From Kocuria atrinae C3-8 (lineage in GTDB: Bacteria > Actinomycetota > Actinomycetes > Actinomycetales > Micrococcaceae): 64,000 nucleotides of DNA. The position numbers were made by a program, and so were the translations under genes. The stretch is from the NCBI RefSeq assembly GCF_000286355.1, contig NZ_AJXN01000082.1, positions 1 to 64,000 of the forward strand, in the 5' to 3' direction. Shown piece by piece: positions 3 to 12,310 of the stretch. Under the pieces are notes generated by a model. The model was given only the letters and a program-made list of their open reading frames with translations. It did not search any database and was not told the DNA's origin. Within the stretch, counting starts at the first letter, position 1. Each line of letters begins with the position of its first letter.

Positions 3-35
3 GAGTACAAGTACGTGGCCGTGCCGCGCAGCTGA
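3..35 (+). CDS. C-terminal end of an upstream gene (partial)
   Basis: An open frame entering from the left edge reads EYKYVAVPRS and stops at TGA 33-35. A strong hairpin follows 12 bases later, which fits the 3' end of a transcribed gene. Ten residues are too few to name the family. Confidence 0.4.
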   Translation, partial: EYKYVAVPRS

Positions 36-983: not shown

Positions 984-2375
984 ATGAATTCGCAACACCA
1001 GGCTGATCCGCCGCACGATCCACGCGGCGCCAATACTCCAGACGGAGCCGCCCACCACCCGGAACCGGACGCCCAGACGGTTCGCCGTGCGGTGGCTGCC
1101 TCTGCGATCGGTAACGCCACCGAGTGGTTCGACTACGGCGTGTATGCAGTGTCGGTCGTCTACATCACCCAGAACTTCTTCCCGGGTGAAGCCGGCACCC
1201 TGCTGGCGCTGAGTACGTTCGCCCTGTCCTTCCTGGTCCGCCCCCTGGGTGGTTTGTTCTGGGGCCCGCTCGGTGACCGGTTGGGCCGCAAGAAGATCCT
1301 GGCGCTGACCATCATCCTGATGGCCGGTGCCACGTTCTGTATCGGCATCCTGCCCACTCACGCGACCATCGGCCTGGCGGCCCCCATCCTGTTGGTGCTG
1401 CTGCGTGTGATCCAGGGCTTCTCGACCGGCGGTGAGTACGGCGGTGCGGCCACGTTCATGGCCGAGTACGCCCCGGACAAGAAGCGAGGCTTTCTGGGCA
1501 GCTTCCTGGAGTTCGGCACCCTGGGTGGCTTCGCCCTTGGTTCGCTGATCGTGCTGATGGGCGAGGTCATCCTCGGCAACGAGGCCATGATGGAGTGGGG
1601 CTGGCGCATTCCGTTCCTGCTGGCTGGACCCATGGGTCTGATCGGTCTGTACCTGCGGTCCAAGCTGGCCGACTCGCCCGTGTTCCTTGAGCTGGAAGAG
1701 GCTGGCCACTCGGAGGAATCCGCGGGCATGGCCCTCAAGGAACTCATCACCACGTACTGGCAGCCCATGCTGATCATGGCCGGACTGGTCGTGTCCGTGA
1801 ACGTGGTCAACTACACCCTGCTCAGCTACATGCCCACCTACCTGGAGGGGCAGACGGAGATGTCCGCGCAGACGGTGCTGACCATCATGTTCATCGCGCA
1901 GTTCGCCATGATGCTCGTGATTCCGTTCGCCGGAACGCTGTCCGACAAGTTCGGACGTAAACCCATGTGGTACTTCTCGCTCATCGGCCTGATCGTGATG
2001 TCGATCCCCATGTACATGCTCATGGCCAACGGTTTCTGGTGGGCGCTGCTGGGCTTCGCGGTGCTGGGGCTGCTCTACATCCCGCAGCTGGCCTGCATCT
2101 CGGCCACCTTCCCGGCGATGTTCCCCACGCAGGTCCGCTACGCAGGCTTCGCGATCACCTACAACGTGTCCACCGCGATCTTCGGTGGCACGGCACCACT
2201 GGTCAACGAGGCGCTGATCGAGTCCACCGGTAACCCGCTGATCCCCGCCTTCTACATGATGGGCGCGTGTGTGATCGGTTTGATCGCCGCCAAGTTCATG
2301 AAGGAGACCGTGGGCGCGTCGCTGCGCGGCACGGAGATCCCGGAGACGGGCAAGATGCCCGTGGTCAACAGGTAA
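984..2375 (+). CDS. MHS-family MFS transporter (ProP-like), candidate ectoine uptake
   Basis: A 463-residue secondary transporter of the metabolite:H+ symporter branch of the major facilitator superfamily. Family marks are ATEWFDYGVYA in the first membrane segment, GDRLGRKK in the first cytoplasmic loop, TGGEYGGAATFMAEYAP and the second-half GTLSDKFGRKPM loop; about 12 membrane segments are visible. Start ATG 984 has GGAGG at 974-978; the frame runs further upstream but without a ribosome site. ProP of this family carries proline, betaine and ectoine. Lying beside a probable ectoine-degradation operon and divergent from its regulator, it may take up ectoine; that substrate is inference. Confidence 0.88.
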   Translation: MNSQHQADPPHDPRGANTPDGAAHHPEPDAQTVRRAVAASAIGNATEWFDYGVYAVSVVYITQNFFPGEAGTLLALSTFALSFLVRPLGGLFWGPLGDRLGRKKILALTIILMAGATFCIGILPTHATIGLAAPILLVLLRVIQGFSTGGEYGGAATFMAEYAPDKKRGFLGSFLEFGTLGGFALGSLIVLMGEVILGNEAMMEWGWRIPFLLAGPMGLIGLYLRSKLADSPVFLELEEAGHSEESAGMALKELITTYWQPMLIMAGLVVSVNVVNYTLLSYMPTYLEGQTEMSAQTVLTIMFIAQFAMMLVIPFAGTLSDKFGRKPMWYFSLIGLIVMSIPMYMLMANGFWWALLGFAVLGLLYIPQLACISATFPAMFPTQVRYAGFAITYNVSTAIFGGTAPLVNEALIESTGNPLIPAFYMMGACVIGLIAAKFMKETVGASLRGTEIPETGKMPVVNR

Positions 2376-2392
2376 GCGCTCTCGCGGAGAAA

Positions 2393-3606
2393 TCAGCGCG
2401 ACAGCAATCGCAACGCGGCCAGGGTGTATGCCCTGGCCGCTTGCGTTAACTCGCGAACGCTCACGGACTCATCCACCTGATGGGCCTGGTCATTGAGCCC
2501 GCCGGGGCCCATGACCACGGTGGGTACCCCGTGGTCGCGGGCGATGAATCCGCCGTCACACGCGGCCGTCCAGCCGCCGATCGATGCCGCACCGCCCACG
2601 TCCGCGACCGCTCCGTGCACGGTGCTGACCAGCACATGATCCTGATCAGTGCGGAAGCCAGGCATGGACATGGTGATCTCGATGTCCATGGAAATCCCGT
2701 CGCCGGTGATTCCGGCCTGGTCCACGGCGGTGCGGAGTTCGGAGACGATCTGCTCCGGGTCCTCACCCGGCATGAGTCGCCGGTCCAGCCACACGTGGCA
2801 CGACGGCGCCACCATGGACGTGGCCCGGCCACCCTCGATCTTGCCCACGTTCCAGGTGGGGGATCCCAGTAGCGGATCCAGCTCGCGGATGTGCTTCTCG
2901 TGGTCCTGCTTGATCAGCGTGAGGAGGGCCGCGGCGGCGTCGATCGCGTTGCGTCCGTCTGCCGGCCGCCCTGAATGGGCGGGGACGCCGGTGATCTCAA
3001 CCTCGAGGTAAGAATCCCCGCGGCACGCAATCACGGTCTGCAAATCGGTTGGTTCGGCCACGATGCAGCCGCGGAATTCACGTCCCAGCCCGCGCGCGGT
3101 GAGGTGACGAATTCCGAGGCCCAGATCCTCCTCATCCACGGTGGACGACAACCGCACCGGTCCGGAGAGTTTCGCACCCGAACGGCGCAGCGCATCCATC
3201 GCGACGAGTACCGCAGCCAGCCCGCCCTTCATGTCCGTGGCGCCGCGGCCGTACAGCCGATCGCCCTCGACCTCCGCGTTGTAGGGCTGCCGCGTCCACC
3301 CGGGCCCGGCGGGCACCACGTCGGAGTGGCCCAAGAACAACAACCCCGGCCCATCTGCACGGGGCCGCCCACGGGCAGGTCCACGTCCACATTAGGTCGC
3401 CCAGGGGCGACGACGTCGCTGCGGGCCAGTAACCCTCGCTCCTCGGCTGCCCGCTCCAAGGCTTGGGCGGTCGGTTCCTCACTGCCCCCGGGATTCTCAC
3501 CGGCGGTGTTCACCAGGGTGCACGTGAGCGCGACCAGCTCATCGGGGTCGATGAGATCGAGCACGGCCCGTTCCTGTGGGGTGCACTGAACATCGTCACT
3601 GGTCAT
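2393..3606 (-). CDS. M20-family deacylase/peptidase (ArgE/DapE-like), frameshifted
   Basis: Zinc amidohydrolase of about 404 residues once one lost base is restored in the G run at 3361-3364. M20 motifs are present: metal-binding GHSDVVPAG, GRGATDMKGG with the bridging Asp, the DEE catalytic/metal pair, and the lid domain with GVPAHSGRP. The first 82 residues (starting MTSDDVQCTPQ) are in one frame and the rest in another. Start ATG 3606 has GGAGAT upstream. Last gene of an operon led by the ectoine hydrolase-like protein. It could remove acetate from N-acetyl-diaminobutyrate, the job of DoeB/EutE in known ectoine loci, although DoeB belongs to another fold. It lacks the features of allantoate amidohydrolase. 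Confidence 0.8.
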
Positions 3607-3731
3607 GAGGATCTCCGTTCATGTGTGGTGCCTGTTCAGGGCCGCTGATTCTCGGTCCTGCGGATCCTTGGTTCCGTGCGCGCTCGGCCCCGGTCACGGC
3701 GGCGGTTTGCCTGTGAGCGGTCGGGTCAGGT

Positions 3732-5015
3732 TTACCCGTCGACCTCTTGGCGGGCGATGTCGAGAGCTCGAGCGAGTCGCTGCAAGCCTTCTTCCGTGCG
3801 TTCCGGGGTGCTCGAGGCAAAGCACAAGCGGAACGCGTCCTCGAACTGACCCGAAGGCGACAGCGCCGGACCGGGGATGAACGCAACGCCCTCGGCCAAC
3901 GCAATCTCGAACAAGCGCGAGGAGGACACCCGAACGTCGTCGCCCTGGAGGGTGACCCACAGGAAGAAGCCGCCGTCGGGATCGGTGGTGCGCACGCGAT
4001 CGCCCAGGTGCCTGGCGATGGATGCGTCCATGGCTTCCTTGCGGCGCTTGTACTCGGTGCGCAGGCCGGCCAGGTGCTCGCCGTAGCCACCGCGCGCGAT
4101 GTAGGCGTTGATGATGTGCTGGGCCGGGACGTTGGCGCACGTGTCCATGGCCTGCTTGCCGGCGATCAGCAAATTGCGCAGGCGGGGATCCGCGTTGATC
4201 CAGCCCACGCGCAGGCCCGGGGCCAGGACCTTGGAGAAGGTCCGCACCGAGAAGACCAAGGGGTCATCCGGCTGATCTCTCGGAAGCCGGGAACGGGATC
4301 GCCGGAGAAGCGCAGGCGCCGTACGGATCGTCGTCGAGGATCATGGCGCCCCATTGGTGCGCGAGGTTCAGCAAGCGGCGTCGTCGATCCTCGCTCAGGG
4401 TGGTGCCGGACGGGTTCTGGAAGTTGGGGATCGTGTAGATCATGCGGGGCGTGCGGCCAGTCTCCGCGACCAGGGTCTCGAGCGCGTCGATGTCCATGCC
4501 GTTGTTATCAACGGGGACTTCCAACACGTCTGCGCCGTAGCTCAGCGCGGTGCCGGAGCCGTTGGTGTAGGTGGGGCTCTCCACGACCACCAGGTCACCG
4601 GGATCCGTGAACAGTTTGAACGCCAGGTCCAGGCCCTGCATGCCACCGGAGGTGATCACGATGCGCTCGGGGTCGGTGGATCCACTCGAGAACTGCTCGG
4701 TGACCGTGGTGATCAGCTCCGGTTCTCCCTCGGTGGCACCGTAGGTGAAGCTCGCGTCCGTGAGCACCTCGCCAGCGATCTGCCGGAACTCTTCCGTGGG
4801 AATCACTTCCGCGGCGGGCGCGCCCATCGCGAAGCGCACAATGTCGTGGGTCTGGGCCGCCAGCAGGGAGGTTGAGGAGTCGATGACAGACCCCACGAGC
4901 CGTCGGCGCGGGAGGCCAGGGGGAACAAGCCCTCGGACGCCGGGCCCGAGATACCCGCGGTGGGGTTGGGATCCAAGGAACGGACGGTGGTGATGTGTGG
5001 CGTGGTGCTGGTCAT
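3732..5015 (-). CDS. PLP-dependent aminotransferase, class I/II (LysN/MocR-like domain), frameshifted
   Basis: A fold-type I aminotransferase of about 428 residues, split into four pieces by three single-base losses (near 4891-4894, 4315 and 4270). Reassembled, it shows the PLP pocket: GGMQGLDLAF, YTIPNFQNPSG, DDDPYGALRF and the Schiff-base lysine in RTFSKVLAPGLRVGW. It has no N-terminal HTH, so it is an enzyme rather than a MocR regulator. Start ATG 5015 has AGGAAG upstream and lies 4 bases after the M24 gene stop, so the two are co-translated. In the proposed pathway it would transaminate 2,4-diaminobutyrate to aspartate semialdehyde; 2-aminoadipate-type or other amino acid activity is also possible. 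Confidence 0.82.
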
Positions 5016-5019
5016 GAGC

Positions 5020-6285
5020 TCACTTCCTGATGATCTGGCGGGGGAAGGATGTGAACGTTTCCACCCCCGTGCTGGTCACTCGGATGGTCTCCGAAACTTC
5101 GTAGCCGTACCCCGTCATCCACATGCCGCAGATGAGGTGGAAGGTCATGTTTTCTTCGAGGATGGTCTCGTCCTCGGAGCGAATGCTGATGGTCCGTTCG
5201 CCCCAGTCGGGCGGGTAACCGATGCCGACCGAGTAGCCCAGGCGGCTGTGTTTCTCGAGCCCGTAAGCGGCCAGTTTCCAGTTCCAGGCACTGGCCAGTT
5301 CGCGGACGGGCACCCCCGGGGCGATGGCGTCCAAGACGGCCTGCAAACCTGCGGCCACTGCATCTTCCAGCCGCAGCATCTCAGCACTGGGTTCGCCCAG
5401 GGTCACGGTGCGGGCCAGGGGTACGTGGTAGCGCCGATGGACGCCGCTCAACTCGACCACCACGGCGTCGCCGGATTTCAAGATCCTGTCCGACCACGTC
5501 AGGTGAGGTGTGTCTGCGGAGGCGCCGGTGGGCATCATAGGAACGATCGCCGGGAAGTCACCCCAGGCGTCGTCGTCGCCCTCAGCCTGCGCCGCGGCGA
5601 TTCGGGCGGCCACTGTGTTCTGGGGGACGCCGGGCTCGATGGCATCGATCGCTGCTTGCATGGCCGCGGTGGTTACCCTCGCTGCGAGACGCATGTAGTA
5701 GATCTCGGCCTCCGACTTCACGGAGCGTACCCAGTTGACCAGCTCGAAGCAGTCGACCAGGAGCCATTCGGGGAGGGCGTTGATCAGGGAGCGATAGCCC
5801 TTGGGGGAGAAGAAGTGCGCGTCCATTTCCAAACCCACGCAGCCGTGGGCGGCCGGGGCGACCTGACCGCGCCGTCGTAGGGCGAAGGCCACCCAGTCGA
5901 AGGGGTGCAGGTGCGGGCGCTGAACGTAGCGTTCCGGGTAGCCGATGATTTGATGAGGAGGCAGCCACGAGGTGCGGAACGCTCCCTGGGCATCCATTTC
6001 GCGCAGGAACAGCAGGATATCTCCCTCGGCGGGAACGAACAGCATCTGCGGAACGTAGAACGACCAGGCGTCGTAGCCGGTCAGGTAGAAGAGATTGGCC
6101 GGATCCGTCACGATCAGCGCGGACAGTCCCTGCTGTGCCATCTTCTCGCGGACACACCGCAACCGTTGCTCGTACTCCAGGGCCGTGAAGAGCGGCGAAC
6201 GGACATCCGCAGGGTCTGGCACGGCCTCCGTTGCGGGGGCCGGATCGGGGGAGGGATAACCCTCAGACACGTCCCATGTGCTCAT
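5020..6285 (-). CDS. doeA: M24-family ectoine hydrolase-like protein (DoeA/EutD type)
   Basis: A 421-residue creatinase-fold hydrolase with no break. The N-terminal creatinase domain has NLFYLTGYDAWSFYVPQ and the C-terminal pita-bread domain has GYSVGIGYPPDWGERT, MTFHLICGMWMTGYGYEVSE and FPRQIIRK. From memory these match ectoine hydrolase rather than prolidase or creatinase. That enzyme opens ectoine to N-acetyl-2,4-diaminobutyrate. First gene of the three-gene operon. A TTGACA/AATCAT promoter pair with a 17-base spacer (minus strand, 6314-6319 and 6291-6296) puts the transcript start near the ATG, so the mRNA may be leaderless. The operator at 6312 overlaps the -35 box. Confidence 0.82.
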   Translation of the reverse strand: MSTWDVSEGYPSPDPAPATEAVPDPADVRSPLFTALEYEQRLRCVREKMAQQGLSALIVTDPANLFYLTGYDAWSFYVPQMLFVPAEGDILLFLREMDAQGAFRTSWLPPHQIIGYPERYVQRPHLHPFDWVAFALRRRGQVAPAAHGCVGLEMDAHFFSPKGYRSLINALPEWLLVDCFELVNWVRSVKSEAEIYYMRLAARVTTAAMQAAIDAIEPGVPQNTVAARIAAAQAEGDDDAWGDFPAIVPMMPTGASADTPHLTWSDRILKSGDAVVVELSGVHRRYHVPLARTVTLGEPSAEMLRLEDAVAAGLQAVLDAIAPGVPVRELASAWNWKLAAYGLEKHSRLGYSVGIGYPPDWGERTISIRSEDETILEENMTFHLICGMWMTGYGYEVSETIRVTSTGVETFTSFPRQIIRK

Positions 6286-6290
6286 GGTTC

Positions 6291-6319
6291 ATGATTGAAG
6301 GAAATCCGCCTATTGTCAA
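6291..6319 (-). promoter_or_regulatory. Promoter of the M24 operon
   Basis: Read on the minus strand: TTGACA at 6319-6314, 17-base spacer, AATCAT at 6296-6291, then ATG at 6285. The spacing predicts a start site at or beside the initiation codon. No Shine-Dalgarno sequence is evident, consistent with a leaderless mRNA. Confidence 0.55.
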
Positions 6320-6323
6320 CAAT
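6312..6323. promoter_or_regulatory. Operator candidate ATTGTCAACAAT
   Basis: A 12-bp near-perfect palindrome that contains the -35 box of the M24 operon promoter. It matches the palindrome at 887-898 in 11 of 12 positions and shares its CAA extension, so one regulator (the GntR/FCD protein) probably binds both. Confidence 0.68.
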
Positions 6324-6478: not shown

Positions 6479-7307
6479 TCAGGACACCAAGATCGACGCC
6501 GCCAAATCAGCGGGGATTTCCACGGCCTCCGTGCCGTCCGAGCGGCGCAGCGTGACAGGTCCGGGGTGAGCCGAGTGGGCATCCGCATCGGCGGGGGCTG
6601 AGCTGCTGACCACCACGGTGCACCCGGCATGAGCCCGCGTCGTAGAGGGAGCGCAGCAACTCCGCGTGGGTCTGAACAGACTCCGAGATCAGCTCCAAGG
6701 TGTATTCGCGCTCGCCGTTGGAGTGGGGTGCACCAGCTTCGGCAGCATCCGCGCCAGTTCCAGCACCCGTGCCAGCGCCACCGGGCCGAACCGAATCAGC
6801 ACCAGCAGTATCCGCCTCGGCACCACCAGAAGCAGCACCCGCCTGCGCCACCGCATCCAACAGCGAGACACCCTCGGGGTTCTGCGTGAATGCCCCGTGG
6901 ATCGGGGTGCCGTAGGGGGAGGTGGTTGGCGAGGATAGAAGCTTCTCGAGCAGCACTTCCACCCGATCACTCATGACGTGCTCCCAGCGGCAGGCTTCTT
7001 CGTGTACGTAGGGCAGCTCCAGCCCGATGACGTCCGCCAACAAGCGCTCGGCCAAGCGGTGCTTGCGCATCACGGAGGTGGCCTGCTCGCGCCCTTCCGG
7101 GGTCAGGGACACCGTGCGGGTGCGGATGTCACCCTCGGAGAGCACCATGAGCCCCTTGCGGCACAGTCTTTGGACGGTTTCGGACACGGTGGGGCCGGTG
7201 TGGCCCAGGCGCTCCACAATGCGGGCGCGCAGGGCTGGGATGCCCTCTTCTTCGAGCTCCAGCACGGTGCGCAGGTACATCTCGGTGGTATCGATCAAAT
7301 CTGTCAT
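6479..7307 (-). CDS. DtxR/MntR-family metal-dependent repressor, frameshifted near its C-terminus
   Basis: Iron- or manganese-dependent repressor. The N-terminal winged helix ([37 protein letters not shown]) is followed by the metal-binding dimerisation domain with [28 protein letters not shown] and the SP..P-G-P-like segment. A stretch of about 50 residues, rich in Gly and Ala ([18 protein letters not shown]), separates this from the C-terminal SH3/FeoA-like domain. Two lost bases (near 6634 and 6617) push the end out of frame; corrected, the protein ends [13 protein letters not shown] at 6479. It probably controls metal uptake genes elsewhere. It shows no operon with either neighbour. Confidence 0.85.
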
Positions 7308-7353
7308 GGTGCGCTCCTAGCTGCGGAACCGTTCCTTCCCGTATCCGAACCTG

Positions 7354-7401
7354 TCAGGCGGGCCAACCCGGGCGGGCCACCTCAGGCGGGCCAACCCGGG
7401 C
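7354..7401. repeat. Two 20-bp direct repeats rich in CCCGGG
   Basis: TCAGGCGGGCCAACCCGGGC occurs at 7354-7373 and again at 7382-7401, a 28-bp period. Further CCCGGGC copies lie in the hairpin at 7431-7466, giving four in about 110 bp. They lie upstream of the DtxR gene start; function unknown. Confidence 0.7.
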
Positions 7402-7430
7402 AAGTCATACGTGAAAAATATCAATAGTGT

Positions 7431-7466
7431 GCCCGGGCTTCACAGTATGAACCGTGAAACCCGGGC
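7431..7466 (-). terminator. Hairpin downstream of allantoinase
   Basis: Inverted repeat GCCCGGGCTTCAC / GTGAAACCCGGGC (7431-7443 with 7454-7466, one mismatch) lies about 40 bp past the allB stop on the minus strand. Probable terminator of the hyi-to-allB operon; no T-run. Confidence 0.55.
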
Positions 7467-7507
7467 AAGCCACTCATAGGCCACTACCAGCCCCTACCGA
7501 GTGTGAA

Positions 7508-9236
7508 TCACACCTGGCCGCGGTTGAGCAGCCGACCCGAGGGCTTCTTGTAGTCGACTTCCTTGCCGCCCACAAAGGTCTTGCGGACCTTACCGGAGAG
7601 CACCTTGCCTGGTACGGGGTGATGGGGTTTTTGTGGTTGAGGGACTTGGCGTCCACCACAAAGCTCTCGTCCTGCGCGAAGACGGCCATATCGGCGTCGT
7701 AGCCCAGGGACAGGCGACCCTTGGAGCGCAGGCCCACGCGCTCGGCCGGGCGAGTGGACATCCACTGGAGAACCTTGTCCAGGCCCACGCCGCGGCGTCG
7801 TGCTTCGGTCCAGATCAGGGACAGACCCAGCTGCAGCGACGAAACGCCGCCCCATGCCACGCCGAAGTCACCGTTGCCCAGGTTCTTCAGGTCCAGGGTC
7901 GACGGCGAGTGGTCCGAGACGATGAAGTCAATGGTCCCGTCCAGCAAGCCCTCCCACAGCTTCTCCCGGTTGGAGACCTCGCGCACCGGCGGGCAGCACT
8001 TGAATGCGGTGGCGCCGTTGGGGATCTCCTCGGAGAGCAGGGTCAGGTAGTGCGGGCAGGTCTCCACGGTGATATCCAGGCCGTCGCGCTTGGCGGAGGC
8101 GATCATGGGCAGCGCATCCGAGGAGGACAGGTGCAGGACGTGCGAGCGCGCCTCGGTCCAGCGGGTGCGCTCGATGACCTCGGCGATGGCGATGTTCTCG
8201 GCACCGCGCGGGCGGGACTTGAGGAAGTGCTCGTACACGTCACCGTTGGGCTGCGGAGCCTTGTCGATGGTGCGCGAATCCTCAGCGTGCACGATCAGCA
8301 GCGAGTCGAAGGTCTTGACCTCGGCTAGCGCCTCTTCCATCTCGTCCGCTTCAAGGTGCGGGAACTCGTCCACGCCGGAGTGGAGCAGGAAGCACTTGAA
8401 GCCGAACACGCCGTCGTCGTGCAGCGGACGCAGGTCCTCCTTGTTACCGGGGATCGCACCGCCCCAGAATCCGACGTCCACAAAGGCGTTCTGCTGGGCG
8501 AACAGGCGCTTGTACTCCAGCGCGGCAACGTTCACGGTGGCGGGCACGGAGTTCAGCGGCATGTCCACGATGGTGGTCACGCCACCGGCCGCCGCGGCGC
8601 GGGTTGCTGAACCGAAGCCTCCCACTCGGTACGGCCGGGCTCGTTGACGTGGACGTGGGTGTCCACGAGGCCGGGGATCAGGGTCTCGTCATCTGCCAGC
8701 TCCACAACCTTGGCGCCCTCGAGGTTCGCGCCGAGCGGTTCGATCGCCACGATCTTGCCGTCCTTGACGCCGATCTCACGCGGCGAGAAGTGATCGCCGC
8801 ACGAAACCTGCTTGCCGCGCACCACCAGGTCGAACTTCCCGGCGTGCTGACCGGTGATGCGGGCCTCGGTGGGCTCGTCAGATTCCTTGAGCTTGTTCTC
8901 CGACTTGTACGCGCGGATCAGTTCGCGCACGCGCTCGGCACTGTTGACCTCGTTGGCGAGCTTGATCTGCTCGGCGCGAGCGGACTCGACCTCTTCGCGG
9001 CGGTCCTCGGTCACGGCCAGCTGCGAGTTCTCCTGGGCCACGTCCTGCGGGGATTCGTTGACCTCGGGGTTCGACGCCGCCTCGGCCACCTTGGCCTTCA
9101 CACTGTCCGTGGCGCGCTCCTCGTTGACCTGCGGGTCCGTGGTGCGCTGGTTCTTGTCCTCAGCGGGCTGGTTGTTCTTGGCGTTGCCGGTGTTCTTACC
9201 GGAGTCTTTGTTGCCCTGTTGAGGGGTTGCGTTCAT
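7508..9236 (-). CDS. allB: Allantoinase with a long N-terminal extension, frameshifted
   Basis: Cyclic amidohydrolase converting (S)-allantoin to allantoate. The metallo-hydrolase core shows [23 protein letters not shown], the carboxylated-lysine region FGFKCFLLHSGVDEF, HAEDSRTID, VETCPHYL and DFIVSDHSPS. Two lost bases (8618 and 7608) split it; restored, it ends KKPSGRLLNRGQV at 7508 and is about 576 residues. Usual allantoinases are about 450, and the surplus is a charged N-terminal region of about 135 residues rich in Glu, Lys, Gln and Asn before the beta-sandwich start (FDLVVRGKQV). Last gene of the hyi-garR-gcl-glxK-allB operon. Confidence 0.9.
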
Positions 9237-9287
9237 GACGGGGAGTTCCTTTCGGAGGTGTGCGGGAGCGGTGACGGCGCGGGCCGT

Positions 9288-10440
9288 TCAGCCGTTCAAG
9301 GTCGAGGCTAGTTCTGAAGCTACCGTGTGTCCCACCTCACGGAGTAACCGGGGTGCTTCACGCATGGATGTCTGAGCGTCCGGAGCTAGGTCGGAGAGAG
9401 CGTGAGTTGCGCGGAAGCCCGTGTCTTCCAGCGTCTTGCGGTCCAGGGTGGTGCGGCCACACACGGCGATCACGGGCACGTCATGGGCTTGCCCGACCTT
9501 GAGCACACCCACCGGGGTCTTGCCGCCCAGGGATTGTTCGTCCAGGCTGCCTTCGCCGGTGATCAGCAGGTCTGCGCCGGTCACGGCATCGTCCAGGTTG
9601 ACCAGATCGAGGACGACGTCGATCCCAGGCCTTCGCGTCGCATTCAAGACGGCCAGCGCGGCATAGCCCACGCCACCGGCGGCACCGGCACCCGGGGCTT
9701 CCGCGGCGTCGCGCGCCGAATCTCCCAAGGCCTCGGCGAGGACGTCGCGGAAGGTGCCCAGGGCGGCGTCGAGCTCGGACACGTCCTGCTCGGAGGCGCC
9801 CTTCTGGGGTCCGAAGACCGCGGCGGCACCGCGCTCGCCGGTGAGCGGGTTGTCCACGTCCGCGGCCAGGATGAACTGTGCGGAGGAAATACCGGGGTGC
9901 AGTCCGGAGACGTCCACGGAGGCCAACTGTGCGAGGGCGGCGCCGCGTCGGGAATCTCGTTGCCCTGGTCGTCCAAGAGGCGGGCGCCCAGGCCGGCGAG
10001 CATGCCCGCGCCGCCGTCCGTGTTGGCGCTGCCGCCCACGCCCAGGATCACCCGGGTGCAGCCGGCGTCGAGTGCGGCGGCGATCAGTTCGCCGGTGCCG
10101 CGACTGGTGGCTTCGCGAGAAGCGAGGATCGGTTCGCCGTTCGCGTCGTGGGGCAGTGCCGCGAGGCCGGAGGCCAGGGACATCTCGACCACGGCGGTGT
10201 CGTCGAGGCGCGCCCAGGCCGCGACCACGGGTTCGCCGATGGGGCCGGTGACCGTGAGGTCGTGGCGCGTGTAGCCGGCGGTGACCGCGGCATCCAACGT
10301 GCCCTCACCGCCGTCGGCCACGGCAGAATCGTGACCTGAGCGTCGGGCTGGGCCTCGCGGATCCCGGCAGCGATGTGCTCGGCCGCCTCCTCGGCGCTCA
10401 CCGAGCCCTTGAACTTGTCTGGTGCCACCACAATGCGCAC
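9288..10440 (-). CDS. glxK: Glycerate kinase (GarK/GlxK family), frameshifted
   Basis: Phosphorylates D-glycerate, the end product of the glyoxylate carboligase branch. Marks are RIVVAPDKFKGSVSAEEAA at the N-terminus, MADGGEGTLDA, GVGGSANTDGGAG and the late ADLLITGEGSLDEQSLGGKTP. Two lost bases (near 10320 and 9935) split the frame; restored it is about 384 residues, normal for the family. The start is GTG 10440 with GGAGG five bases upstream. It lies between gcl and allB in the same direction, separated from gcl by a hairpin that may lower its expression. Confidence 0.9.
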
Positions 10441-10470
10441 GAGAACCTCCCGAAAATCTTTAGCTGAACC

Positions 10471-10503
10471 GCGGGCCGCGCACGGATTCCGTGAGCGGCC
10501 CGC
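10471..10503 (-). terminator. Cruciform hairpin between gcl and glxK
   Basis: GCGGGCCGC (10471-10479) pairs with GCGGCCCGC (10495-10503), and the interior CACGGA-T-TCCGTG is itself palindromic. It could be a partial terminator or mRNA-stability element inside the operon. Confidence 0.5.
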
Positions 10504-10534
10504 GAGGTATCGGACGGAGTAGAACTGTCCGTGA

Positions 10535-12310
10535 TCAGTCGAGCAGGGCGATGGCGGTGGGTGCGTCCACACCGCGTGCCGCCAGCTCCTCGAACTCCAC
10601 CACGTTGTCCAACTCGGTGCCCATGGAGATGTTGGTGACCTTCTCCAAGATGACCTCCACCACCACGGGAACCTGGTGCTCCTGAGCCAACGAGTTGGCC
10701 TCGGAGAACGCGTCCTGCAGCTTGTCGGGATCGGTCACGCGCACGGCCTTGCAGCCCAAGCCCTCGACCACCTTGATGTGGTCCACACCGTATCCCTGGG
10801 TCTCCGGGGAGTTGATGTTGTCGAAGGCCAGCGACACGTTCTGTTCCATCTTGAACCCGCGCTGGGACTGACGGATCAGACCCAGGTAGGAGTTGTTCAC
10901 GACCACGTGGATGTAGGGCAGGTTGAACTGCGCGCCCACGGCCAATTCCTCGATCATGAACTGGAAGTCGTAGTCACCGGACAGCGCCACCACGGTCTCA
11001 CCGGGCTTGCCGCGCACCACACCCAGGGCGGCCGGACCGGTCCAACCCAGGGGGCCGGCCTGGCCGGCGTTGATCCACTTGCGCGGACCGTACACGTGCA
11101 GGAACTGGCCACCGGCGATCTGCGACAGACCGATCGTGGACACGAAGGTGACGTCCTGGCCGAAGGCCGAGTTCATCTCTTCGTACACGCGCTGCGGCTT
11201 GATGGGCACCTCGGTGAAGTGCGTCTTGCGCTGGAGCTGGCCCTTGCGCTGGATGCACTCCTTGGCCCACACGCCGTAATCGGGGACGGAGAACTTTTCC
11301 TTACGTTCCTTGGCCACCTCGAGGAGGACGGTCAGAGCGGCGTCGGCGTCGGAGACGATGCCCAGATCCGGCGAGAACACGCGACCGATCTGGGTGGGCT
11401 CGATGTCCACGTGCACAAAGGTGCGGCCCTCGGTGTACTTGTCGATGGAACCGGTGTGGCGGTTGGCCCAACGGTTACCGATACCCAGGACGAAGTCCGA
11501 GGCCAGGAACGACTCGTTGCCGTACCGGTGCGAGGTCTGCAGCCCCACCATGCCGGCCATCAACGGATGATCGTCGGGAATGGCGCCCCAGCCCATCAGG
11601 GTGGGGATCACGGGAACATCGAGCACCTCGGCCAGCTCGACCAGCTTTTCGGAGGCGTTGGCGTTGATGATGCCGCCACCGGCCACGATCAGCGGACGCT
11701 CGGAGGCGAACAGCATGTCCAGGGCGCGCTCGGCCTGGGCACGGGTGGCCGCGGGCTTGGCCACGGGCAGGGGCTCGTAGAGGTCGATGTCGAACTCGAT
11801 CTCGGCCAACTGCACATCCAGGGGCAGGTCGATCAGCACCGGACCGGGGCGGCCCGAACGCATCTCGTGGAACGCTCGCGCGAAGGTGCCCGGAATCTGA
11901 CCCGGCTCCAGCACGGTCACGGCCATCTTGGTCACCGGCTTGGCGATCGAGGCGATGTCCACGGCCTGGAAATCTTCCTTGTGCAGCTTGGCCACCGGAG
12001 CCTGACCGGTGATGCACAGGATCGGCACCGAGTCAGCGATCGCGGCGTAGAGGCCGGTGATCATGTCGGTGCCCGCGGGGCCCGAGGTGCCCACGCAGAT
12101 ACCGATGTTGCCGGGAGCGGCACGGGTGTAACCGTCGGCCATGTGCGAGGCACCCTCGACGTGGCGGGCCAGCGTGTGGCGGATACCGCCGTCGTTACGC
12201 ATGGCTGAATAGAACGGGTTGATGGCCGCACCGGGCAAACCGAACGCCTCGGTTGCGCCTTCCTTCTTCAGGATGGCGACAATGGCGTCCACCGTACGCA
12301 TCTTGGTCAT
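10535..12310 (-). CDS. gcl: Glyoxylate carboligase (tartronate-semialdehyde synthase)
   Basis: A ThDP enzyme joining two glyoxylates to tartronate semialdehyde and CO2. The 591-residue frame is intact. It starts with [18 protein letters not shown] and has the Gcl-specific [18 protein letters not shown], in which Val replaces the catalytic Glu of other ThDP enzymes. It also has the FAD-binding middle domain and the GDYDFQFM...[15 protein letters not shown] ThDP/Mg2+ site. It is preceded by garR and hyi in the same direction. Length, motifs and neighbours all agree. Confidence 0.96.

Follow-up and report, generated by a model that had tools for sequence, protein, structure and literature searches.

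A likely ectoine catabolism regulon in Kocuria atrinae C3-8 with a DoeA-like M24 hydrolase, a candidate ArgE/DapE-type deacetylase and a predicted FCD-GntR regulator

Introduction

Which compound is degraded by the genes at the left end of a contig of Kocuria atrinae C3-8, and are the enzymes those of the known routes of ectoine catabolism? The DNA stretch analyzed here (64,000 nucleotides, positions 1 to 64,000 of NZ_AJXN01000082.1; referred to as the window) lies on contig C82 of a 79%-complete Kocuria assembly (G000) and carries genes for an M24 hydrolase, an M20 metallohydrolase, a class I/II aminotransferase (AT1), a metabolite:H+ symporter (MHS) and a GntR-type regulator with an FCD domain. 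An earlier note on this DNA had suggested an alternative ectoine pathway with replaced enzymes, of which a different candidate deacetylase and a regulator other than EnuR are retained below, but not the replacement of the aminotransferase. Good circumstantial support from sequence comparisons makes it likely that these genes belong to the core of a regulon by which the salt-stress compound ectoine is catabolized, with another deacetylase in place of the usual one and a regulator of its own.

Results and Discussion

Affiliation of the M24 protein

Among solved structures, the best match of the M24 protein was the ectoine hydrolase DoeA (6twj/6twk; phmmer, 370 bits, E = 1.4e-109), whereas Xaa-Pro dipeptidase and creatinase reached only 82 and 54 bits, respectively. 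A maximum-likelihood tree was calculated for 66 proteins, comprising the window protein, proteins from 41 of 93 loci, and 24 reference and outgroup proteins; several outgroup branches are long, the root serves for drawing only, and characterized creatinases are not among the rows. The window protein fell within an actinobacterial clade of 36 rows (support 100/99), which is nested in a clade of 57 rows (96/95) together with five DoeA proteins whose genes have doeB next door. This larger clade also takes in an ehu-adjacent M24 protein of Sinorhizobium as well as clades of Bacillota and haloarchaea, and DoeA_2, other paralogues, Xaa-Pro-type proteins, and a methionine-aminopeptidase-like protein branched outside it. 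Out of 179 alignment columns that are invariant in the five DoeA proteins, 124 are kept by the window protein and 34–74 by seven outgroup proteins. At the five positions that we take to be the metal ligands of M24 peptidases, the window protein has E278, P289, Y351, I385, and S398 and the Leisingera DoeA has E, P, Y, M, and T, which indicates that the ligands are replaced as in DoeA.

Judged by its sequence, the M24 protein is ectoine-hydrolase-like, as the earlier note had read from its motifs. The phylogeny proposed there sets the protein apart from the dipeptidases, and for creatinase, absent from the tree, the comparison consists of the two scores given above. A creatinase/prolidase N-domain, the M24 domain, and the neighboring M20 peptidase-family gene could also be expected of a dipeptidase or creatinase in a cluster for the salvage of peptides or creatine, but this is extremely unlikely in view of the replaced metal-ligand positions, the structure scores, and the placement in a tree that lacks creatinase. 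The identification as a dipeptidase was rejected on the same three grounds.

DoeA-like M24 proteins (E up to 1e-40) were detected in 10 of 27 genomes of the genus, including that of strain C3-8, and the closest named M24 proteins among the matches listed were those of Kocuria sp. cx-455 and K. marina. A published study reports doeA in all, and ectA in none, of the Kocuria strains it covers (PMC12343579). A search for EctC (PF06339) was negative in all 10 genomes scanned, but its control was silent too, so this result is uninformative.

Conservation of the gene set in Actinobacteria

The gene set extends beyond the left end of the window, and further parts of it were found on contig C66 (locus L127) of the same assembly. 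This contig contains the rest of an SSADH-type aldehyde dehydrogenase gene (with broken frames too) and genes for an FAD oxidase, a class III aminotransferase (81% identical to the copy in locus L028), and a D-2-hydroxyacid dehydrogenase. The set, to which the class III enzyme belongs, is split by the contig end.

Conservation was surveyed in 68 loci, which are the Actinomycetota among the best 80 matches listed for the M24 protein, some with little flanking sequence and several closely related to one another. Thirteen further loci (L022–L034), some of which are the same records, were excluded from this count. Neighbors were assigned by the best tblastn match to a protein panel under author-set identity and score thresholds within at most 10 kb on each side, and genes in unannotated loci were called by a simple codon-usage script and named from their translations and panel matches. 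Within this reach the most frequent partners were the M20 enzyme (55 loci), a class I aminotransferase (48), SSADH and D-2-hydroxyacid dehydrogenase (39 each), and FAD oxidase (37), followed by the MHS transporter (34), class III aminotransferase (33), GntR (31), EutA-like proteins of the maleate isomerase family (21), DUF3830 (19), amidase (18), and Ehu-type transporters (6). The gene order M24–AT1–M20 occurred in 41 loci and M24–M20–MHS in nine. Since the match to DoeA is this strong and the order M24–AT1–M20 recurs, the locus is not a chance assemblage.

Parts of the set were also seen in haloarchaeal plasmid loci (L115, L133, and L141), where a DoeA-like M24 gene occurs with a D-2-hydroxyacid dehydrogenase gene and, in L133 and L141, additionally with an FAD/Fe-S oxidase gene. 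This pair is shared with actinobacteria.

A shared palindrome and the predicted regulon

Two sites of the palindrome ATTGTNNACAAT were found in the window, with 0.04 expected. For the form ATTGTYRACAAT, four genomes of the genus (G000, G018, G011, and G009) have exactly three sites each, all of them at the gene set, and the reversed control gave no site. In strain C3-8 the three sites are located in the promoter of the M24 gene, in the gap between the GntR and MHS genes, and, on contig C66, in the gap between the genes of the class III aminotransferase and the D-2-hydroxyacid dehydrogenase. A fifth genome (G002) has ATTGTYRACAAT at two places, namely in the same class III aminotransferase/D-2-hydroxyacid dehydrogenase gap and in a gap between an EutA-like gene and a group of amidase, DUF3830, and GntR genes. 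Over the 68 loci, 106 sites of ATTGTNNACAAT were counted where 0.05 would be expected. One or more sites are present in 42 loci, and 99 of the 106 sites lie near the starts of panel genes, although such regions account for only 13% of the bases. In four of the six Ehu-bearing loci the palindrome precedes ehuB, as called, by 64–95 bp.

The gene set is likely to form one dedicated regulon because the palindrome occurs exactly three times per genome in four genomes and always at the set. The FCD-GntR protein probably binds the palindrome and controls this regulon. A regulator other than EnuR, as anticipated in the earlier note, is consistent with the presence of this protein at the locus and with the survey, in which none of the 68 loci had an EnuR-like regulator of the MocR/GabR type.

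The shorter palindrome TTGTNNACAA is unusually abundant in three Kribbella loci (L087, L088, and L095), with 8–10 sites per locus. Sites also occur at a distance from panel genes, and the regulon of Kribbella may therefore include more genes.

The M20 enzyme as candidate deacetylase

The earlier note held that the M20 enzyme is not a DoeB, and indeed DoeB (TIGR02994) has no match in the 79%-complete assembly of strain C3-8, with a control that matched in one of 14 genomes and below its cut-off; the tblastn panel detected DoeB in none of the 68 actinobacterial loci either. On TIGR01910 (cut-off 217.6), the longer piece of the window's M20 reading frame scored 217.8 bits and the intact copy of locus L024 scored 226.7 bits. 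Further copies were above (L087, L084, and L044) or below (L058, L078, and L097) this cut-off. The enzyme did not reach the cut-offs of the more specific ArgE and DapE models listed. By these sequence criteria the M20 protein belongs to the ArgE/DapE subfamily. Its position in the gene set leads us to propose that it removes the acetate from N-acetyl-diaminobutyrate. The distances of M24 and M20 proteins are correlated over 54 loci (r = 0.86, reached by none of 1,000 permutations), although shared ancestry alone could suffice for this.

An M20-type ectoine deacetylase has already been curated in NCBIfam as DoeB2 (NF038260), and PMC13188858 describes tentative Bacillota clusters with abgB and mentions Actinomycetota. 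One might hence regard the locus as the ordinary Gram-positive pathway described before, with the M20 protein simply being DoeB2. This is very unlikely since the actinobacterial enzyme belongs to the ArgE/DapE group of M20 proteins and NF038260 neither matches on contig C82 (E up to 0.001) nor is listed for the seven actinobacterial M20 proteins scanned (E up to 1e-40 and 1e-25). Elsewhere in the assembly this model has nine matches, the best with 300 bits (cut-off 550). In addition, blastp of the actinobacterial M20 against the M20 of Priestia was not significant, and those M20 proteins that match NF038260 in this analysis also match the amidohydrolase model TIGR01891. The actinobacterial M20 enzyme would represent a further recruitment as ectoine deacetylase, because it matches neither the DoeB nor the DoeB2 model.

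Aminotransferases, dehydrogenase, and transporters

The earlier note had assumed that AT1, the class I/II enzyme, takes the place of the class III aminotransferase of known ectoine loci. This was not borne out: contig C66 of this genome encodes a class III enzyme that is part of the same regulon, so the class I enzyme is not its replacement here, and this candidate role was rejected. When the intact L024 copy of AT1 served as the query, aminoadipate and multi-substrate aminotransferases were among its nearest solved structures. A second role considered for AT1 was that of an EnuR without its DNA-binding part. AT1 is 26% identical to the Leisingera EnuR over 289 residues, and its best curated matches are other MocR proteins, none of them near its own cut-off; neither result gives a specific link. 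The SSADH of locus L028 is 48% identical to the enzyme of the Leisingera doe cluster, and the two EutA-like proteins of that locus scored 83 and 101 bits on the EutA model (cut-off 318).

An MHS transporter is present in the window instead of an Ehu-type system. Where Ehu genes accompany the actinobacterial set, EhuB exceeded the cut-off of the ectoine model TIGR02995 in six of six loci, as did EhuD in five of five and EhuC in two of two tested against their models, and the single EhuA tested (343.3 bits) stayed just under its cut-off of 345.4.

Ectoine or a related compound

Several observations weigh against ectoine as the substrate of a uniform pathway. On the DoeA model TIGR02993 the M24 protein scored 416.4 bits (curated cut-off 613; Leisingera DoeA, 814 bits) and on the DoeA_2 model NF038259 222.2 bits (cut-off 575); being under both cut-offs, it is by the curated rule an equivalog of neither. 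The MHS protein, too, is below the cut-offs of the ProP model NF007927 (421.1 bits; cut-off 544) and of TIGR00883 (398.7 bits; cut-off 443.45). In none of the 68 actinobacterial loci did EutB, EutC, DoeB, or EnuR give the best panel match; one locus (L111) has a threonine-lyase-like match. Several conserved genes stand outside the classical route. The palindrome is missing in 26 loci, and 13 have no ArgE/DapE-type M20 within reach, seven of these being Brevibacterium loci in which the M24 gene adjoins another class III aminotransferase gene. A class III aminotransferase is within reach in fewer than half of the loci, and the L028 copy shares no more than 29% identity with its Leisingera counterpart. 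At the set of Kocuria sp. cx-455 (L035 and L123), to which the search was confined, SSADH, FAD oxidase, and D-2-hydroxyacid dehydrogenase are present but no class III gene was found, which speaks against a uniform route. The M20 proteins scanned from Bacillota, Alphaproteobacteria, and haloarchaea belong to another subfamily and thus do not directly vouch for the actinobacterial enzyme.

The sub-cut-off score of the M24 protein on the DoeA model, the absence of EutB, EutC, and DoeB from the best panel matches in the 68 loci, and the recurrence of an amidase, DUF3830, FAD oxidase, D-2-hydroxyacid dehydrogenase, and class I aminotransferase, which the classical route does not need, would also suit a regulon for a related small cyclic amidine, N-acyl amino acid, or peptide-like compound, the M24 protein then being a DoeA relative with a shifted substrate. 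This alternative is rather unlikely: all Ehu-bearing loci encode an EhuB above the ectoine equivalog cut-off and most of them have the shared palindrome in front of ehuB, the M24 protein groups with DoeA and conserves its residues, and a class III aminotransferase and SSADH belong to the same regulon in the genome of strain C3-8.

Predicted pathway

Ectoine therefore remains the likely substrate, with 5-hydroxyectoine as a possible second one. In the pathway predicted from the gene set, the MHS transporter would import ectoine, and the M24 hydrolase would open its ring to give N-acetyl-diaminobutyrate. The ArgE/DapE-type M20 enzyme would take off the acetate to yield diaminobutyrate, from which the class III aminotransferase encoded on contig C66 would form aspartate semialdehyde, and the SSADH-type dehydrogenase would convert the latter to aspartate. 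The FCD-GntR protein would bind ATTGTYRACAAT at the three promoters until released by a pathway intermediate. The class I aminotransferase, the D-2-hydroxyacid dehydrogenase, and the FAD oxidase stand outside these steps.

A more far-reaching interpretation is a distinct actinobacterial route for ectoine and 5-hydroxyectoine. In this route, ring opening would fall to a DoeA-like enzyme and deacetylation to one of the ArgE/DapE type, and an extra branch made up of the class I aminotransferase, D-2-hydroxyacid dehydrogenase, FAD oxidase, and EutA-like enzymes would act on hydroxylated or gamma-acetyl intermediates, the role of EutBC elsewhere. A single FCD-GntR regulator would control all of these genes through an operator of its own. 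This interpretation is tentative, and the probability assigned to it is clearly below even.

Locus layout and state of the assembly

The five genes of the window were located where the earlier note had placed them (Table 1). The description given there, of MHS and GntR genes divergent from the operon side, needs correction: the MHS gene is divergent from the GntR gene and convergent with the M20 gene.

Table 1. Gene set and palindromes at the left end of the window.
Feature	Position	Strand	Evidence and remarks
SSADH-type aldehyde dehydrogenase, last 10 codons and stop	3–35	+	C-terminus compared with L121; gene cut by contig end
FCD-GntR regulator	151–813	−	PF00392 and PF07729, both over cut-off
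Operator-like palindrome ATTGTCGACAAT	887–898	no strand	GntR/MHS intergenic gap
MHS transporter, ProP-like	984–2375	+	NF007927 and TIGR00883 matches, sub-cut-off
M20 metallohydrolase, ArgE/DapE type	2393–3606	−	TIGR01910; frame broken here, intact in relatives
Class I/II pyridoxal phosphate-dependent aminotransferase (AT1)	3732–5015	−	PF00155 in both pieces; frame broken here, intact in relatives
M24 pita-bread hydrolase, DoeA/EutD-like	5020–6285	−	DoeA structures 6twj/6twk, TIGR02993, tree, residue comparison
Operator-like palindrome ATTGTCAACAAT	6312–6323	no strand	Upstream of M24 gene; same place in L022–L025

Single-base differences interrupt the M20 and AT1 frames of this assembly. The relative L022 (approximately 96% DNA identity over the stretch) has intact copies of both, and a relative with intact M20 and AT1 frames has an M24 protein 99% identical to that of the window. 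Since the frames are intact in a close relative and further frames near the set are broken likewise by single-base differences, the interruptions are likely, though not proven, to be sequence errors.

The adjoining region (6507–12310) contains genes for a DtxR-type regulator, an allantoinase/dihydropyrimidinase-like protein, a glycerate kinase, and a glyoxylate carboligase, the last three named by reading the translations. Compared with a relative, several frames in this region likewise show single-base differences, which suggests sequence errors across the assembly. A link of the set to the allantoinase-like and glyoxylate genes was considered, and the allantoinase-like gene also adjoins the set in L022–L025.

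Comparison with known systems and implications

The proteobacterial doe and eut loci (doe of Halomonas elongata; eut of Ruegeria pomeroyi and Sinorhizobium meliloti) share with the actinobacterial set a DoeA-like M24 protein, a class III aminotransferase, and an SSADH-type dehydrogenase, and an Ehu-type transporter with those few related actinobacterial loci that carry one. In contrast, DoeB, EutB, EutC, and EnuR were not seen in the 68 actinobacterial loci, and the set differs further by its ArgE/DapE-type M20, its FCD-GntR protein with a palindrome of its own, and the extra genes. The DoeA_2/DoeB2 pair (NF038259/NF038260) likewise combines an M20-family deacetylase with an M24 ectoine hydrolase, but the window's M24 protein reaches less than half of the DoeA_2 cut-off, and its M20 is of the ArgE/DapE type whereas those matching NF038260 in this analysis also match TIGR01891. 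For this pair the doeBDAC genes of Methylotuvimicrobium alcaliphilum (PMC7192451) may serve as a comparison. Around a DoeA_2 relative in L135, inspection of the called genes by eye recognized no M20 gene.

Genes for M20-type enzymes also lie together with DoeA-like M24 genes and ectoine genes in other groups, which speaks for the link of the actinobacterial set to ectoine. A plasmid of S. meliloti RRI128 (L119, 2157–9414) carries a MocR-type regulator gene and ehuBACD–M24–M20, with no doeB in view, and its M24 protein scored 612.6 bits on the DoeA model, 0.4 under the cut-off. On pNGR234a of S. fredii NGR234 (L132, 1–7164), the order is ehu–M20–eutB–eutC–M24–M24, both M24 proteins being DoeA-like and no doeB being in view; in this alphaproteobacterial ectoine locus the candidate deacetylase is of the M20 type. 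Priestia has eutB–pdxS–M24–cyclodeaminase and an M20 gene, with no annotated DoeB. The M20 proteins of RRI128, NGR234, and Priestia belong to the amidohydrolase group.

A study of 2026 (PMC13188858) put forward ectoine clusters for Bacillota, Actinomycetota, and archaea, which its authors call tentative. According to that study, ectoine consumption by Gram-positive bacteria had not previously been shown; its clusters are predictions, and those of Bacillales contain pucR, eutBC, and abgB-thrA-adh. A DoeA-like M24 protein is common to these Gram-positive and haloarchaeal clusters and the actinobacterial set, and a further similarity is that the Bacillaceae have the abgB amidohydrolase gene and no eutE. 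In its sections 8 and 9, the article describes neither a palindrome nor a regulon under an FCD-GntR protein, and neither a class I aminotransferase nor an ArgE/DapE enzyme. PMC8739950 gives an EutD/EutE scheme and states the activities of EutABC as unknown. A literature search, with most subscription literature outside its scope, found nothing on DoeB2, on DUF3830, or on ectoine together with an M20 deacetylase and Actinobacteria. The system is not wholly new and is better seen as a variant of a known pathway than as a new kind, because Gram-positive clusters have been published and DoeB2 has been curated.

With three palindromes in each of four genomes from the genus, the limits of the gene set and of its likely control are sharp. 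If the proposed functions are correct, a second M20 subfamily would act as ectoine deacetylase and a regulator unlike EnuR would govern the pathway, and the set would provide a way to approach the breakdown of hydroxyectoine, the chemistry of which is unsolved.

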